From contig DZCQ01000035.1 in NCBI GenBank assembly GCA_022730285.1, positions 1 to 17,527 of the forward strand: DNA of 17,527 bases. Direction: 5' to 3'. Positions 151 to 7,441 of this stretch are shown here, piece after piece. Below the pieces are notes generated by a model, which was not told the DNA's origin, did no database searches, and saw only the letters and a list, made by a program, of their open reading frames with translations. A program made the translations under genes and the position numbers. The stretch comes from Flavobacterium psychrophilum. Its GTDB lineage: Bacteria; Bacteroidota; Bacteroidia; Flavobacteriales; Flavobacteriaceae. Every line of letters begins with the position of its first letter. Positions within the stretch are counted from its first letter, which is position 1.

Positions 151-158
151 TATCTTTG
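151..158 (+). promoter_or_regulatory. his operon promoter, -7 element TATCTTTG
   Basis: TATCTTTG matches the Bacteroidota sigma-A -7 consensus TAnnTTTG exactly. Transcription would start around 164-166, only a few bases before the leader peptide ATG at 172. No clear TTG lies at the usual 17-23 nt upstream; the region there is T-rich (121-134), so the -33 element is weak. The placement directly ahead of the leader peptide and attenuator supports the call. Confidence 0.6.
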
Positions 159-171
159 TTAAAATTATCCA

Positions 172-231
172 ATGATAACAATGCAATTACATCATCATCA
201 TTATCCTATTTGCTCTCAAGCGATGTGTTAA
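172..231 (+). CDS. hisL: his operon leader peptide with four consecutive His codons
   Basis: A 19-codon frame reads MITMQLHHHHYPICSQAMC followed by TAA (229-231). Four CAT codons run together at 190-201. An in-frame ATG at 181 could be the start instead of 172; both keep the His run. The peptide is not homologous in any meaningful way to the enterobacterial HisL, but it has the same logic: a run of codons for the operon's end product, a stop codon, and then an intrinsic terminator before the first structural gene. Scarce charged tRNA-His would stall the ribosome in the run. Its position between a consensus -7 element and a terminator, directly ahead of hisG, makes the assignment strong although the frame is far too short for normal gene calling. 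Confidence 0.88.
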   Translation: MITMQLHHHHYPICSQAMC

Positions 232-272
232 TGGTATGTGTATAAATCACTATATTTTAAAACCCGTTTGAG
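215..272 (+). promoter_or_regulatory. candidate antiterminator pairing (215-222 with 265-272)
   Basis: CTCAAGCG at 215-222 can pair with CGTTTGAG at 265-272, giving 8 bp including one G-U. The downstream arm lies inside the left arm of the terminator, so the two structures exclude each other. The upstream arm lies in the last leader codons, 13-20 nt after the His run. A ribosome stalled on His codons would leave it exposed, while a ribosome at the stop codon (229-231) would cover it and let the terminator form. The pairing is seen in the sequence; the mechanism is inferred from known amino-acid attenuators. Confidence 0.6.
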
Positions 273-296
273 TACTTCAAACGGGTTTTTTATTTT
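259..296 (+). terminator. his attenuator terminator hairpin
   Basis: A 13-bp perfect stem pairs 259-271 with 277-289 (core AACCCGTTTGA with TCAAACGGGTT) around the 5-nt loop GTACT. It is followed by a T-rich tract (286-296) interrupted by one A. This is a strong intrinsic terminator lying between the leader peptide and hisG, where nothing else needs terminating, which identifies it as an attenuator. Its left arm overlaps the candidate antiterminator. Confidence 0.9.
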
Positions 297-300
297 CACG

Positions 301-350
301 AAGTACTCATTAATATTCAACATAAAAATTAAAATAAACAATGAGTACTT
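301..350 (+). promoter_or_regulatory. inverted repeat overlapping the hisG start codon
   Basis: AAGTACTCATT at 301-311 is the exact reverse complement of AATGAGTACTT at 340-350, with a 28-nt A/T-rich spacer. The right arm contains the hisG ATG (341-343), so the folded mRNA would bury the start codon. The same GAGTACTT word also occurs at 270-277 in the terminator hairpin and could compete for the 301-308 arm. Part of the signal is the palindrome AGTACT. A function in translation control is inferred only. Confidence 0.45.
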
Positions 351-1198
351 TAAAAATCGCAATCCAAAAATCTGGAAGATTAAATGAAGATAGTCTTCAA
401 ATATTAAAAGACTGTGGCATTTCTATCAATAATGGAAATGACCAATTAAAAGCATTAGCAACAAACTTTCCAATAGAAATTTTGTTTTTAAGAAATTCCG
501 ATATACCACAGTATTTACTAGATGGAGTGGTAGATGTTGCCATAGTAGGAAGCAATCTACTAGTCGAAAAAACACCGAATATTAGAACAGTTCAACAATT
601 GGGCTTTTCTAAATGCAAACTATCTGTTGCAGTACCAAACACTTTTCAATATAATGCTATTCAAGATTTAAGTGGACTCAGAATTGCAACTTCCTATCCA
701 AATACTGTTACTAAATTTTTTGCCTCTAAAAATATTTCTATAGAAATACACCAAATATCTGGCTCAGTAGAAATTGCTCCAAATATAGGACTTTCAGATG
801 CAATTGTAGATATTGTATCTAGTGGAAGTACTTTGTTTAAAAATGGTTTAAAAGAAGTGGAAACTGTTCTAAAAAGTGAAGCAGTATTAGCCGTTTCTCC
901 ATTAATTTCTTCCAAAAACGAAGTCATTTTAAACAAATTGCTCTTTAGAATTCAATCTGTTTTAAATGCAAGAAACTCAAAATATATTTTAATGAATGTT
1001 CCTAACAACAACATTGACAAAATTACCCAAATATTGCCTGTATTAAAAAGCCCAACAATAGTCCCTTTAAAAGAAAAAGGGTGGAGTAGCGTACAAACTG
1101 TTATTAAAGAAGCACAATTTTGGGACGTGATAGACAAACTGAAAGAAGCTGGTGCCGAAGGAATTTTAGTTTGTCCAATTGAAAAAATGGTTTTGTAA
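341..1198 (+). CDS. hisG: ATP phosphoribosyltransferase, long form
   Basis: First step of histidine synthesis: ATP and PRPP condense to phosphoribosyl-ATP, in the cytoplasm. The 285 residues match the long HisG form, with two periplasmic-binding-like catalytic lobes (about 1-210) and a C-terminal ACT-like regulatory domain (about 215-285, ending GILVCPIEKM) that binds histidine for feedback inhibition. N-terminal KIAIQKSGRL and central DAIVDIVSSGSTL are typical of the family. Being long form, it should work as a homohexamer without HisZ, and no hisZ is present. It is the first structural gene after the attenuator, and its ATG lies in one arm of an inverted repeat. hisD follows after 18 nt. 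Confidence 0.96.
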   Translation: MSTLKIAIQKSGRLNEDSLQILKDCGISINNGNDQLKALATNFPIEILFLRNSDIPQYLLDGVVDVAIVGSNLLVEKTPNIRTVQQLGFSKCKLSVAVPNTFQYNAIQDLSGLRIATSYPNTVTKFFASKNISIEIHQISGSVEIAPNIGLSDAIVDIVSSGSTLFKNGLKEVETVLKSEAVLAVSPLISSKNEVILNKLLFRIQSVLNARNSKYILMNVPNNNIDKITQILPVLKSPTIVPLKEKGWSSVQTVIKEAQFWDVIDKLKEAGAEGILVCPIEKMVL

Positions 1199-1216
1199 AA
1201 TAATTATAACAAATTT

Positions 1217-2506
1217 ATGATACTACTAAATAACCCAGATAGAAACAAATGGTCAGAAGTTTTAAAACGACCAAGCCAAAATTTTTCAGAAATAGAAAAT
1301 CTAGTAAAAGATATTTTTAAAGATGTACAAGCAAATGATGACTTTGCAATTCTAAAATATACAAAACTTTTTGATGGAATTTCAATTAACGAAATAGTAA
1401 CAAGCAAGCAAGAAATAGTAGAAGCAACCAATTCTGTTTCGAAAGAATTAAAAGAAGCTATTGAAATTGCAAAAAATAATATCGAAAAGTTTCACTTATC
1501 TCAAAAAAGCGAAAAAAAGTTAGTAGAAACTAGCAAAGGGGTGCTTTGTTGGCAAGAAAAAAGACCAATACAAAAAATTGGACTGTACATTCCTGGAGGT
1601 ACTGCACCTTTATTTTCCACCATTTTAATGTTAGCTATACCAGCAAAAATTGCAGATTGTGAAGAAATAATTTTATGCACACCACCAGACAAATTTGGAA
1701 AAATAAACCCAACCATTTTATATACTGCAAATTTATGTGGCATCACTAAAATTATGAAAGTAGGTGGTATTCAAGCAATTGCAGGTATGAGCTTTGGTAC
1801 AAAATCTATTCCTAAAATACATAAAATTTTTGGACCTGGGAATCAATATGTAACCATGGCAAAGCAAATTGCAACACAACATGGAATTGCTATCGATATG
1901 CCAGCTGGTCCTAGTGAATTGCTTATAATTGCAGATGAAAGTGCAATACCGAGTTTTGTAGCTGCAGATTTGCTAAGCCAAGCAGAACACGGAATGGATA
2001 GTCAGGTAATTTTGGTCTCTACCTCTCAAACAGTACTAGACGAAGTTGGAATTGCAATTAATAACCAAATAAAAATGCTTCCAAGGAAAGAAATTGCAAA
2101 AAAAGCAATGGAAAATTCTAAACTGATTTTTGTTCCAAATAATAACATTGCCATAGATTTAATAAATGAATATGCACCAGAACATTTTATAATTTGTACT
2201 AAAAATAATTCTTTTTTTATAGAAAATTGCATCAATGCAGGCTCGGTATTTATAGGAAATTATTCTCCTGAAAGTGCTGGAGATTATGCCTCTGGAACTA
2301 ACCACACATTACCAACAAATGGATATGCTAAAAACTATTCAGGTTTAAATTTAGACAGTTTTCAAAAAACCATCAGTTTTCAAGAAGTTTCTAAAGAAGG
2401 AATTTTAAACATAGGAAAAGCCATAGAAATAATGGCTGAAGCAGAAGGACTGCAGGCTCACAAAAATGCAGTTTCAATCCGATTAAGTTTTTTAGAAAAC
2501 AATTAA
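1217..2506 (+). CDS. hisD: Histidinol dehydrogenase
   Basis: Catalyses the last two steps, oxidising L-histidinol to L-histidine with two NAD+. The length (429 residues) is normal. Visible landmarks are IPGGTAPLFST (125-135), GPGNQYVTMAKQ (206-217) and SAGDYASGTNHTLPT (353-367). By position, the zinc ligands are Q255, H258, D356 and H415 and the catalytic pair is E322/H323, all displaced four residues from the E. coli enzyme and all retained. The start at 1217 is the first ATG after hisG, with no Shine-Dalgarno, as expected in this lineage. Second gene of the operon. Confidence 0.97.
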   Translation: MILLNNPDRNKWSEVLKRPSQNFSEIENLVKDIFKDVQANDDFAILKYTKLFDGISINEIVTSKQEIVEATNSVSKELKEAIEIAKNNIEKFHLSQKSEKKLVETSKGVLCWQEKRPIQKIGLYIPGGTAPLFSTILMLAIPAKIADCEEIILCTPPDKFGKINPTILYTANLCGITKIMKVGGIQAIAGMSFGTKSIPKIHKIFGPGNQYVTMAKQIATQHGIAIDMPAGPSELLIIADESAIPSFVAADLLSQAEHGMDSQVILVSTSQTVLDEVGIAINNQIKMLPRKEIAKKAMENSKLIFVPNNNIAIDLINEYAPEHFIICTKNNSFFIENCINAGSVFIGNYSPESAGDYASGTNHTLPTNGYAKNYSGLNLDSFQKTISFQEVSKEGILNIGKAIEIMAEAEGLQAHKNAVSIRLSFLENN

Positions 2507-2523
2507 TAAGCAAAAAGTAGAAA

Positions 2524-3567
2524 ATGAAAACATTTGATAGTAACAATATTGTTAGAAAAAATATTCATTTAATGGAGGCTTATGCTTCTGCAAGAGATGA
2601 ATTTACAGGTAATTCTAAAAAAATGATCTTTTTAGATGCAAATGAAAACCCTTTTCAAAATGGGGTAAATAGATATCCTGATCCACAACAAATAGAGGTT
2701 AAAAAGAAATTATCGGTGCTAAAAAAAGTACCTACAAACCAAATATTACTTGGAAATGGAAGCGATGAAGTGTTAGATTTACTGTTTAGAGCTTTTTGTG
2801 AGCCAAAAATAGATAATGTCATAACTTTGCCTCCAACGTATGGAATGTATAGCGTTCTTGCCAATTTGAATGCAGTAAAAAATAAAGAAATTATTTTAGA
2901 TGCAAATTTTCAACCTGATGTACCAAAAATACTTGCAAATATTGACAAGAATACAAAAATAATTTTTATATGTTCTCCAAACAACCCCACTGCAAACATA
3001 ATTGAATCGACATACATAGAAGATTTAATTCAAAAATTTAATGGTATTATTGTAATTGATGAGGCATATATTGAGTTTTCCAAAAATGAAAGTTGGCTTA
3101 CTAAATTAAACGATTTTCCAAACTTAGTAATCACACAAACTCTTTCAAAAGCATACGGATTAGCGGGAGTTAGACTAGGAATTTTGTATGCTTCTACTCA
3201 AATTATTACTATCTTAAACAAAATAAAACCACCTTATAATATCAATCAACTAACACAAAATAAGGTTTTAAAAGTTTTAGAAAAAGCAGATGTTTTGAAA
3301 AATGAAATTAACTTAATTTTAAGTGAAAAGGAAGTTTTATTTAAACAATTACTTCAAATAAAATTTATTTTAAAAATCTATCCAAGTGATGCTAATTTTA
3401 TTCTTATTAAAGTAGATGATGCCCATTTGAGATACCAACAATTATTAAAAAACGGCATTGTTGTAAGAAATAGAAGCTCTCAAGCATTGTGCGAAAATAC
3501 TTTAAGAATTACCATTGGAACAAATGCAGAAAACAAGAAGTTAATCAAAATATTAAAAGAATTATAA
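2524..3567 (+). CDS. hisC: Histidinol-phosphate aminotransferase
   Basis: PLP-dependent fold-type I aminotransferase converting imidazole acetol phosphate and glutamate to histidinol phosphate. It has 347 residues, the usual size. Motifs include the N-terminal substrate loop LDANENPF (37-44), [22 protein letters not shown] (150-156), and VIDEAYIEF. The PLP lysine is K209 in [13 protein letters not shown]. The last two bases of its TAA stop (3565-3567) and the first of the hisB ATG share base 3567 (TAATG), which suggests translational coupling to hisB. Confidence 0.96.
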
Positions 3568-4706
3568 TGACACAAAAAATTTTGTTTTTAGATAGAGATG
3601 GAACATTGGTTTTAGAACCAGAAAATTATCAATTGGACAGTTTATCCAAATTAGAATTTTATCCTCAAGTTTTCAAATATTTAGAAAAAATAGCTCAGGA
3701 GTTAGATTTTAAATTAGTTATGGTAACCAATCAAGATGGACTTGGAAGCGAAAGTTTTCCCGAAGAAAATTTTTGGCCAACACAAAACTTCATAATCAAG
3801 GCTTTTGAAAATGAAAATATACTATTCGATAAAATTTTTATTGACAATAGTTTTCCCGAAGAAAATTCTCCAAATAGAAAACCTAAAACAGGAATGCTAA
3901 CCGAATATATAGAAAATCCAGCATACGATTTAAAAAATTCTTATGTAATTGGAGATAGATTGACCGATGTTGCATTAGCTAAAAATTTAGATGCAAAATC
4001 TATTTTTATTCAAAACAATCAAAATTTAGGGCTTTTAGAAATTAATTCCGAAAAAGAAAACTTACTAAAATCTATCTCCTTACAAACTAATTCGTGGGAA
4101 CGGATATATACTTATCTTAAATTAGAAAATAGATGTTCTATAATTTCTAGAAAAACCAACGAAACCGATATTTTTATCAAAATAAATCTAGACGGGAATG
4201 GAATAAACAAGATAGAAACAGGAATTCCTTTTTTTAACCACATGCTAGAACAAATTGCTCGCCACGGACAAATAGATTTAGAAATTATTGTAAAAGGAGA
4301 TTTAGAAGTAGATGAACACCATACAATAGAGGATACGGGTATTGCTTTAGGCGAAATATTTGCAACAGCTCTAGGAAACAAACTGGGAATAGAACGCTAT
4401 GGCTTTTGCCTACCAATGGACGATTGTTTGGCACAAGTCGCTATCGATTTTGGTGGTAGAAATTGGATAGTTTGGAATGCCGAATTTAAAAGAGAAATGA
4501 TTGGACAAATGCCTACCGAAATGTTTTTTCATTTTTTTAAATCCTTTACAGATGGAGCTAAGGCAAATATCAACATCAAAGCAGAAGGCACAAATGAACA
4601 TCATAAAATTGAATCTATCTTTAAAGCATTTGCAAAAGCAATAAAAATGGCCATAAAAAGAGATATAGACAAAATGATTTTGCCAAGCACAAAAGGGATT
4701 CTATAA
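3567..4706 (+). CDS. hisB: Bifunctional histidinol-phosphatase / imidazoleglycerol-phosphate dehydratase
   Basis: Carries out two steps: IGP dehydration and histidinol-phosphate hydrolysis. The N-terminal HAD phosphatase (about 1-165) shows FLDRDGTL (nucleophile and acid Asp), VTNQDGLG and YVIGDRLTD. The C-terminal IGPD domain (about 185-379) shows [20 protein letters not shown] and NEHHKIES, the metal-binding His/Glu motifs. The start at 3567 ([13 protein letters not shown]) was chosen because it matches the E. coli HisB N-terminus and overlaps the hisC stop by one base. The same frame is open upstream to 3489, but that part lies within hisC. Odd point: the loop that carries Cys-x-His and Cys-x-Cys zinc ligands in E. 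coli reads [16 protein letters not shown], with none of them. Confidence 0.95.
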
Positions 4707-4728
4707 CTAGCTAAATAATAGTAAAAAA

Positions 4729-5316
4729 ATGAAAATAGTGATAATTAATTATGGAGCAGGAAACATACAAAGCATCTTGTTTGCACTACAAAGAGTAGGA
4801 TTTCAAGCAATTTTAAGCAATAATCCTGACGAAATTAGAAATGCAGATAAAGTAATTTTTCCAGGCGTTGGAGAAGCGGGTAGTGCAATGAAAATGTTAA
4901 AAGAAAACAAATTAGATGCTCTAATCTCTAGTCTAAAACAACCCGTTTTAGGAATTTGCTTGGGAATGCAGTTAATGTGCAAGTTTACAGAAGAAGGAAA
5001 TACTACCGGATTGGGAATTTTTGATACTTCGGTTACTAAATTTTCTTCAAAAGTACGAGTGCCTCAAATTGGTTGGAATACCATTTTTAATCTTAAAACA
5101 GCAATTTTTAATACTATTTCTGAAAATGAATATATGTATCTAATTCACAGTTTTTATGTTCCACTAAATGCAAACACAATTGCAAGTTGTAATTATGAAA
5201 CAGAATATTCAGCAGCAATGCAAAAAGATAATTTTTACGGAGTACAATTCCACCCAGAAAAAAGCGGCAAATTTGGAGAACAAATTTTATTAAATTTCTT
5301 ACAATTAAAAACCTAA
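4729..5316 (+). CDS. hisH: Imidazole glycerol phosphate synthase, glutaminase subunit
   Basis: Class I glutamine amidotransferase that supplies ammonia to HisF. The 195 residues are normal length. The catalytic triad is visible: C77 in GICLGMQLM, and H175/E177 in GVQFHPEKSG. The N-terminal INYGAGN and the PGVGEAGSAM oxyanion region fit HisH. Separated from hisB by 22 nt and from hisA by 3 nt. It forms a heterodimer with HisF, encoded two genes on. Confidence 0.96.
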   Translation: MKIVIINYGAGNIQSILFALQRVGFQAILSNNPDEIRNADKVIFPGVGEAGSAMKMLKENKLDALISSLKQPVLGICLGMQLMCKFTEEGNTTGLGIFDTSVTKFSSKVRVPQIGWNTIFNLKTAIFNTISENEYMYLIHSFYVPLNANTIASCNYETEYSAAMQKDNFYGVQFHPEKSGKFGEQILLNFLQLKT

Positions 5317-5319
5317 CAA

Positions 5320-6051
5320 ATGAGAATTATACCAGCCATAGATATTATAGACGGAAAATGTGTTCGGCTAAGCAAAGGAGATTACAGCACTCAAAAAATA
5401 TACAATGAAAACCCATTAGAAGTAGCCAAACAATTTGAGAATTATGGCATAAAATACTTGCATTTAGTAGATTTAGATGGAGCAAAGTCTACAAAAATTG
5501 TAAACTATAAAATACTAGAAGAAATTGCATCAAAAACAAATTTAAAAATTGATTTTGGTGGAGGAATAAAGTCAAATGACGATTTAAAAATTGCTTTTGA
5601 ATGTGGTGCTACACAAATAACTGCTGGAAGTATTGCCGTAAAAAACCCTGATTTGTTACAAAAATGGATTGTAGAATTTGGATCCAACAAAATAATTTTG
5701 GGTGCTGATGCTAATCACGAAAAAATTGCAGTTTCTGGCTGGGAAGAATCTAGCAATTTGGAACTCATTCCATTTATAAAAAGCTACGAAAACAAAGGCC
5801 TAAAACAGGTTATTTGTACAGATATTGCAAAAGACGGAATGCTTGAAGGTCCTAGTTTTGATTTATATAAAAAAATTATAACGCAAATTCCAAGCATACA
5901 ATTAATTGCCTCTGGCGGAATTTCAAAATTTAACGATATTCCGAAGCTAGAAGAATTAGGTTGTGAAGGTGCAATAATAGGTAAAGCAATTTATGAAAAA
6001 AAAATTTCTTTAAAAAATATTGAAAATTACATACTTACAACAAATATCTAA
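5320..6051 (+). CDS. hisA: ProFAR isomerase (HisA)
   Basis: (Beta-alpha)8-barrel isomerase converting ProFAR to PRFAR by an Amadori rearrangement. It has 243 residues. The two catalytic aspartates are D8 ([14 protein letters not shown]) and D130 (ILGADA). Phosphate-binding motifs are DFGGGI (78-83) and IASGGIS near 197-203, and [10 protein letters not shown] (166-175) is the HisA/HisF signature. Start is 3 nt after the hisH stop, implying coupled translation. HisA is paralogous to HisF next door; the VRLSKG and LVDLDGA motifs assign this one to HisA. Confidence 0.96.
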
Positions 6052-6070
6052 ACATTTAATTTAAATAAAA

Positions 6071-6826
6071 ATGCTTACGAAAAGAATTATTCCATGCTTA
6101 GATATTAAAGATGGAAGAACCGTAAAAGGAGTGAATTTCTTAGAATTAAAAGATGCTGGAAACCCAATTGAGCTCGCAAAAAAGTATGCTAAAAATGGTG
6201 CTGATGAATTAATTTTTTTAGACATATCCGCAACAGATGAAAACCGTAAAACATTGGTACAAATGGTTAGTAACATAGCAGAAACCATTAACATTCCATT
6301 TACTGTTGGAGGAGGAATTACAAGCATTCAAGATGTGGAAATACTTTTGCAAAATGGTGCCGATAAAATTTCTATCAACTCTGCAGCGATAAAAAAACCA
6401 TCATTAATTACTGAATTAGCAAACAAATTTGGAAGCCAGTGTGTGGTTGTTGCAATAGATGCTAAATGGATAAATCAAGAATGGATAGTACATTTAAACG
6501 GAGGAAAAATTGCAACGGAACTAAATTTATTCGATTGGGCGAAAGAAGCAGAAATTAGAGGGGCTGGCGAAATTTTATTCACATCAATAAATCATGATGG
6601 AGCAAAAAATGGTTTTGCAATCGAGGCACTTTCTAAATTATCTAAAACCGTAAATATCCCAATAATTGCATCGGGAGGAGCTGGAAATACACAACATTTT
6701 ATCGATGTATTTCAGTCTGCAAATGCCGATGCCGCACTCGCAGCAAGTGTTTTTCATTACCAAGAAATAGAAATTCCAACCTTAAAAAAAGAACTTTATC
6801 AAAATAAAATTGCCGTTAGGCTTTAA
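6071..6826 (+). CDS. hisF: Imidazole glycerol phosphate synthase, cyclase subunit
   Basis: (Beta-alpha)8-barrel that combines PRFAR with ammonia from HisH to give imidazole glycerol phosphate and AICAR. It has 251 residues. The catalytic aspartates are D11 ([17 protein letters not shown]) and D130 (VVAIDAKW). TVGGGI (78-83) and IASGGAGN near the C-terminus bind the substrate phosphates, and [13 protein letters not shown] is typical of HisF. The 19-nt gap to hisA is A/T-rich and carries no signal that I can see. Confidence 0.96.
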
Positions 6827-6838
6827 TAAAAACGAAAA

Positions 6839-7441
6839 ATGATAGCTATCAACTTTGAAAAAAATAAAGACGGATTAGTCCCAGCCATAATCCAAGACAA
6901 TGAAACAAAGACTGTTTTAATGCTGGGTTATATGAACAAAGAAGCCTACAATATTACTATGCAAACACAAAGAGTAACCTTTTTTAGCAGATCTAAAAAC
7001 AGATTATGGACAAAAGGGGAGGAGAGCGGAAATTATTTAAACCTTATTTCTATAAAATCCGATTGCGATAACGATACACTTTTACTACAAGTTAATCCTG
7101 TTGGTTCAACTTGTCATACTGGAGCAGATACTTGTTGGCAAGAGAAAAATAGTTCAAATTATGGCTATATTTCAAAATTAGAAAATGTAATTAAAGATAG
7201 AATTAAAAATTCAGATGCAAGTAAAAGCTATGTTTCCAGTTTATTTGCAAAAGGTATTAATAAAATAGCCCAAAAAGTAGGAGAGGAGGCTGTAGAAATG
7301 ATTATTGAAGCAAAAGATACCAACAATAACTTGTTTTTAAACGAAGGTGCCGACTTACTTTTTCACTATCTTATATTATTGCAAGCAAAAGGATTTGAAT
7401 TAAAAGATATTGAAGAAATTTTGAAAAGTAGAGAAAAATAA
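6839..7441 (+). CDS. hisIE: Fused phosphoribosyl-AMP cyclohydrolase / phosphoribosyl-ATP pyrophosphohydrolase
   Basis: Steps 2 and 3 of the pathway in one 200-residue protein. The N-terminal HisI domain (about 1-103) has GYMNKEAY, FFSRSK, WTKGE.SG, SDCDNDTLL (C76 with D77 and D79) and VGSTCHTGADTC (C92, C99), which bind Zn and Mg. The C-terminal HisE domain (about 107-200) is an all-alpha MazG-like fold with KVGEEAVE (146-153) and EGADLLFHYLILL (169-181). The fusion order is the common one. It is the last his gene; the pathway is complete in this operon. Confidence 0.96.
   Translation: MIAINFEKNKDGLVPAIIQDNETKTVLMLGYMNKEAYNITMQTQRVTFFSRSKNRLWTKGEESGNYLNLISIKSDCDNDTLLLQVNPVGSTCHTGADTCWQEKNSSNYGYISKLENVIKDRIKNSDASKSYVSSLFAKGINKIAQKVGEEAVEMIIEAKDTNNNLFLNEGADLLFHYLILLQAKGFELKDIEEILKSREK

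Follow-up and report, generated by a model that had tools for sequence, protein, structure and literature searches.

A strand behind the terminator of a Flavobacterium his attenuator and its possible role in a second, translational tier

Textbook attenuation ends at the terminator, and the question raised by the locus studied here is whether the leader of a Flavobacterium his operon ends there as well. The window, that is the whole stretch of 17,527 nucleotides analysed (Flavobacterium psychrophilum, contig DZCQ01000035.1), carries the operon hisGDC(NB)HAF(IE) at bases 341-7441, in the order hisG, hisD, hisC, hisNB, hisH, hisA, hisF, hisIE; the names other than hisG were recognised from the ORF translations, without family search. 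Among genome contigs the top HisG, within the best 80 of 271 matches, belongs to Flavobacterium sp. GT3R68 (82% identity), and the titles of these 80 are nearly all Flavobacterium or Flavobacteriaceae. Judged from its sequence, the stretch 151-296 forms the ribosome-mediated attenuator of a his operon of Flavobacterium type. On the whole, we consider it rather probable that this transcription attenuator has a second tier, probably translational, which would work through a strand made behind the terminator.

The his attenuator and its conservation

An earlier note on this DNA had described a -7 element, a 19-codon frame with four His codons, an 8-bp antiterminator and a 13-bp terminator with a T tract, and all of them lie where it had put them (Table 1). 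The predicted antiterminator joins CTCAAGCG (215-222) to CGTTTGAG (265-272) in 8 bp with one G-U, and the fold of bases 165-300 has -30.8 kcal/mol (z -4.7), with none of 200 shuffles equally good. The conservation of the S-Q-A leader codons would be explained by their overlap with the antiterminator strand. A helix between the His codons and the stretch after 222, present in the window model, was rejected, as it beats shuffles (p<=0.05) in only 24 of 129 sequences. According to the text of PMC9723704, the flavobacterial -7 box sits at -12 to -5, which places the predicted transcription start near 163 and leaves a predicted 5' UTR of about 9 nt. By the same estimate 122 of 130 relatives have 13-32 nt, nine sequences showing a weaker box only, so the window stands at the short end.

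Table 1. Parts of the his attenuator, the strand behind it and the start of hisG in the window
Feature	Position	Strand	Sequence	Remarks
-7 promoter box	151..158	+	TATCTTTG	TAnnTTTG, read from the sequence; box position after the text of PMC9723704
Leader ORF	172..231	+	MITMQLHHHHYPICSQAMC + stop	19 codons; ATG 172-174, stop 229-231
His control codons	190..201	+	four CAT	read from the sequence; run conserved
A, antiterminator 5' strand	215..222	+	CTCAAGCG	overlaps the S-Q-A codons; strongly conserved
Intrinsic terminator	259..293	+		13 bp, 259-271 with 277-289; loop 272-276; T tract
C5', antiterminator 3' strand	265..272	+	CGTTTGAG	in the terminator 5' arm and first loop base
C, terminator loop and flanks	269..278	+		C:P helix, 10 bp in the window
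Three-way covarying site	275	+		loop base; partners 303 (P) and 348 (hisG codon 3)
P, post-terminator strand	300..311	+	GAAGTACTCATT	pairs with 269-278 or 340-351
S, hisG start region	340..351	+	AATGAGTACTTT	pairs with P over 12 bp, one of them G-U
hisG	341..1198	+		from the ORF list; named via relatives; first gene of the regulated operon

These parts are conserved in the close relatives, taken as the best 80 of 271 HisG matches. A short ORF with a His run precedes hisG in all 79 that are readable (upstream of L061 the sequence is too short for this count), bearing out the expectation of conserved His runs, and by our own reading of the list 73 of the 79 leaders have four or more consecutive His. 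The terminator pattern is found in all 81 sequences, namely the window and L001-L080. The pairing of 215-222 with 265-272, on which the earlier note had relied, also holds in relatives: A:C5' is better than shuffles in all 129 analysable cases among 133 unique sequences.

At the level of the phylum, HisG was matched in 252 of 296 sampled genomes, and 130 loci were read, being the 30 best among the matches listed and 100 chosen ones, so that weak HisG matches are hardly sampled. A leader was counted as His-rich if three or more of eight codons, in the 300 nt upstream, were His; 113 of the 130 loci have one, versus 71 of 1300 shuffled sequences and 2 of 130 reverse-complemented ones. Arranged in five groups by falling HisG similarity, leaders occur in 17/17, 17/17, 56/68, 23/24 and 0/4 loci, and a terminator after the leader in 17, 17, 35, 0 and 0. 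Among the distant loci L103-L215 having both leader and terminator, pairing of the leader stretch with the terminator 5' arm and loop surpasses that of shuffles in 48 of the 52 that could be tested. In a sample of 199 genus genomes there are two HisG lineages (68-82% and 51-59% identity to the window), which show the same attenuator plan wherever it was read; 67 of the 199 give no HisG match at 1e-60.

The first tier, a conserved attenuator in the phylum, is thus drawn from the comparison of leader, terminator and antiterminator only, and it is almost certainly classical His attenuation; the corresponding claim of the earlier note is well supported by conservation across relatives. When His-tRNA is short, the ribosome would stall at 190-201 and leave 215-222 free to pair with 265-272; with the antiterminator formed there would be no terminator, and RNA polymerase would enter hisG. 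A ribosome at the stop codon would cover 215-222, and the terminator would end the transcript. Given the codon positions and the footprint of a ribosome, the 5' strand would lie outside a ribosome stalled at the His codons and inside one that has reached the stop codon.

A post-terminator strand complementary to the terminator loop

The first ten bases of the strand P, downstream of the T tract, exactly complement 269-278. In relatives the loop varies (GTACA, GTATA, GTAAA, GTCAA, GCACA and others) and P changes alongside; with four other stem types C and P form as many as 17-21 bp (L105, L111-L114, L116, L119). At the covarying loop site the C-P pair is C-G in 97, A-T in 16 and T-A in 9 of 128 loci, a table which omits ten loci named as lacking P. 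Comparing own with permuted partners, 0 of 5000 permutations reach the own mean of C:P, and when the loci are sorted by loop class, own partners outdo foreign ones in 17 of 19 classes, all but GCAA and GTGTA; such swaps and permutations ignore kinship. The mean C:P energy is -14.6 kcal/mol versus -5.8 with shuffled spacers, with p<=0.05 in 107 of 113 representatives. The partner-permutation and shuffled-spacer tests both omit loci with less than 35 nt from terminator to hisG. The raw C:P counts lean towards the helix, because the register of P was chosen by its pairing with C. On fixed 45-nt stretches, C:P is better than shuffles in 124 of 133 his sequences, but among trp attenuators from the genus in 2 of 34.

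Kinship enters with a tree of hisG, built without its first 12 codons and with changes inferred by parsimony. It has 22 double-sided C:P changes at 13 positions, of which 20 have a standard pair before and after, and 96 single-sided changes, which keep the pair in 59 cases and break it in 37. This count supersedes one that still included L103 and L079, where 26 of 28 double changes kept pairing.

Further loci were fetched once the idea of the helix existed. The strict terminator pattern occurs in 111 of 199 genus genomes and HisG, at E<=1e-60, in 132; 21 genomes have HisG without the strict pattern, and 19 were used, G441 and G419 (HisG at a contig end) being left out, as was the second HisG place of G437, where the piece is too short. 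In these 19 loci, with HisG 51-59% identical, C:P is found in 18, with a mean of -20.4 versus -7.8. The one miss, L330, is due to the script misreading the T tract, and P is visible there by eye. Terminator and P were seen by eye in all 19, and the His leader was recognised by script in 18 and by eye in L333, which has a GTG start. They are new loci and not a wholly unseen lineage, since L221, L246 and L247 had been seen before.

P is missing in the Sinomicrobium loci L067 and L078 (L079 is doubtful) and in L080, L103, L106, L108-L110 and L115. Across the phylum it gives p<=0.05 in 12 of 41 loci tested; nine of the 12 have HisG 64-67% identical (L104, L105, L107, L111-L114, L116, L119), and the matches in L127, L152 and L205 are regarded as chance. 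The idea that P belongs to Flavobacterium attenuators in general was rejected on the trp result above, with 0 of 11 among the trp loci with an assigned trpE start. From these comparisons C:P is, with high probability, a real and selected helix. The earlier note had called the attenuator complete; this appears too narrow, as the conserved strand 300-311 and the hisG start 340-351 seem to belong to it too.

The start of hisG and a possible second tier

P has a further possible partner, since its bases 301-311 exactly complement 340-350. A part of the P:S signal follows from C:P, because C and S share TGAGTA. The two can be separated at base 348, the second base of hisG codon 3; it lies opposite P base 303, whose other partner is loop base 275. 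The complementarity P:S exceeds shuffles (p<=0.05) in 88 of 113 representatives and stays at p>0.05 in 25; in the later loci it beats shuffles in 10 of 19 and does not in 9. By start sequence, the own P is better than a foreign P in 18 of 23 classes and no better in 5, and the start region as a whole, when folded, shows more pairing than it does with shuffled spacers (p<=0.05) in no more than 40 of 113.

At the three-way site, the P base and the codon-3 base form G-C in 97, T-A in 13, A-T in 8 and G-T in 2 of 128 loci, with no pair in 8. In 111 of 118 tree leaves the codon-3 base has its partner in P, a number which 0 of 9203 simulations reach (maximum 110) when the hisG base evolves independently, with three states, equal rates and 5-9 changes. 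All 7 inferred changes of this hisG base keep the pair with P: on 5 branches all three bases change together, and the remaining 2 go to a G-U partner. Other branches (L057, L074, the L091 clade) lose P:S, and at the three-way site L021, L074 and L105 have no C:P pair. In L328, P follows a changed second codon (ATGAAT with ATTCA), and in the L324 group C:P is kept while one P:S pair is lost. We read C:P as the constant feature and P:S as real in many lineages, not all; judged by these counts, P:S is weaker than C:P and clade-dependent.

From this we infer both the function of the C:P helix and the order of events in the second tier. In read-through RNA, P (300-311) would have two mutually exclusive partners. 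With the terminator closed, P would be free for the hisG start codon, and translation of leaked mRNA would be lowered; with the terminator held open by the antiterminator, P would pair with the loop and 3' arm of the terminator, and this would keep the terminator from re-forming and leave the hisG start codon open. P cannot act on termination itself, as it is made only once the polymerase has passed the terminator. We give the translational role through P:S tentatively, as a possibility almost as good as its opposite. Slightly more tentative still is the full proposal, in which one stalled ribosome would have two outputs, termination and then translation via P, and a three-way selection would have steered hisG codon 3.

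Forced models agree in direction with this proposal. With C:P forced, 8.2 of 12 start-region bases are unpaired versus 4.5 with the terminator, and the start is more open in 103 of 120 loci, equal in 11 and less open in 6, an opening which is partly by construction as C:P uses up P. Forcing A:C alone hardly opens the start (more open in 34 of 120, equal in 71, less in 15). The energy of C:P minus that of the terminator, with A exposed, is +6.3 kcal/mol at the median and negative in 4 of 120; the free energies thus favour the terminator, and the C:P state would need the stalled ribosome or kinetics to hold it. In the unforced ensemble the openness of the start is 0.62 when stalled versus 0.58 when released, in the expected direction in 97 of 126; this difference is small because the terminator dominates at equilibrium, and forced states were therefore compared instead.

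Several other explanations have to be weighed against this two-tier reading. The one we take most seriously, though we think it unlikely, lets C:P act on RNA stability or processing, either dissolving the terminator hairpin in the finished mRNA or making a protective 5' hairpin, with no switch of translation. It would fit the wider keeping of C:P than of P:S (L034/L040-type, L071, L324-type), whereas the tracking of P by the codon-3 base of hisG on the tree speaks against it. Clearly less probable is an ordinary attenuator with P as a by-product that matches hisG by chance, through the TGAGTA common to the terminator loop and the hisG start. That the same-genus trp attenuators do without P, and that P is absent from several related loci, favours this simple view; however, C:P covaries at loop sites which the terminator stem does not need, and it was found again in 18 of the 19 loci fetched later.

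The helix might also repress, hindering the ribosome, as in many relatives it stops 12-19 nt short of the start codon, among them nine P-bearing loci within L104-L119. We regard this as very improbable: the start codon itself is open in the C:P-forced models, and repression during His starvation would make no sense. Still harder to credit are the repeats TGAGTAC...GTACTCA...TGAGTAC as DNA sites of a regulator rather than RNA helices. Their core does contain the palindrome GTAC, and the window has three copies of this core around the hisG start, yet the arms co-change to other sequences and use G-U partners, while a protein site would be expected to stay constant in sequence.

Known systems and other leaders

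The enterobacterial his attenuator (RF00514) has a His-run leader peptide and an antiterminator competing with a terminator ahead of hisG, and we know of no post-terminator strand in it. The window element has the same plan: RF00514 matches 189-294 over all 126 positions with 38.5 bits and E 5.6e-5, below its cut-off of 49, and at the cut-off it has no match in the window or in 20 related loci. To call the leader and its folds unrelated to the proteobacterial his attenuators, as the earlier note did, is accordingly too strong. Other loose-threshold Rfam matches (PyrG, PyrR, Trp leaders and others) are weaker than RF00514 and were taken as chance. A leader acting at two levels is known from the trp operon of Bacillus subtilis, where one leader (TRAP) governs transcription and also, once read through, how the first gene is translated; that leader senses by a protein, whereas the window leader would sense by the ribosome on a leader peptide. 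The abstract of Vitreschak 2004 (FEMS Microbiol Lett) reportedly mentions candidate attenuators in Bacteroidetes/Chlorobi.

The text of PMC9723704 (2021) reports a conserved, structured 5' element ahead of hisG in Flavobacteriaceae, which is very probably identical with the window attenuator, and transcript data giving strong clues to leader-peptide attenuation upstream of Flavobacterium amino-acid operons; leader sequence, helices and the P strand are not given in that text. The statement that such attenuators are less studied in this lineage is thus fair in general, while it overlooks this hisG element. In Firmicutes, another phylum, His-leader attenuators with three to five His codons, terminator and antiterminator are described in PMC9413887. 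For the P strand we found no description in the literature searched, with subscription papers and supplements outside its scope. The attenuator itself would therefore be of an already reported kind and the P strand the newly described part, a strand behind the terminator kept and covarying with the loop in Flavobacterium and nine more distant loci. According to the text of PMC9723704, translation starts in the group rely on features other than Shine-Dalgarno pairing. If the two-tier reading is true, transcription and translation control would be joined in one leader, in a group not reliant on Shine-Dalgarno pairing.

Other leaders were seen in the course of this reading. The 24 phylum loci L188-L211 (HisG 40-43% identical; Bacteroidales by inference only) have a His-rich leader in 23, and no intrinsic terminator was detected between leader and hisG in any of them. 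Their spacer is 59-116 nt long and G-poor (3-16% G), and in 16 of the 23 the leader start (GTG or ATG) lies 4-5 nt after a -7-like box, so that it is probably at the first mRNA bases; their read-out is probably Rho-dependent or translational. His leaders without a detected terminator were also found in L159-L162, L166 and L167, where hisG seems to start with TTG or GTG and where L160, L166 and L167 have the common spacer TGTATGTTTCTACGCGAAATAACAACC. The leaders of L142-L144 end in HHFHHSS and are followed by the conserved ACACACCC...CCGGTGA...TTCACCAAAA, with no terminator detected before hisG. In L115, a second terminator-like hairpin (TCCCGTGAAAACGGGA and a T run) lies between attenuator and hisG, at the usual place of P.

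Within the genus, the trpE loci (L271-L275, L292-L321) show a short ORF containing consecutive Trp codons (mostly NNTWWW) in 35 of 35, and a terminator of the type GGCTTGTC...GACAAGCC in 34 of them; the ilvD locus L268 has MMQISIIITSVIVVNVFSTSASGMV ahead of a terminator. Leader attenuation looks general in the genus Flavobacterium. In addition, the terminator pattern occurs at a second place in four genomes (L264, L265, G410:C33, G439:C42), with a loop one base shorter.
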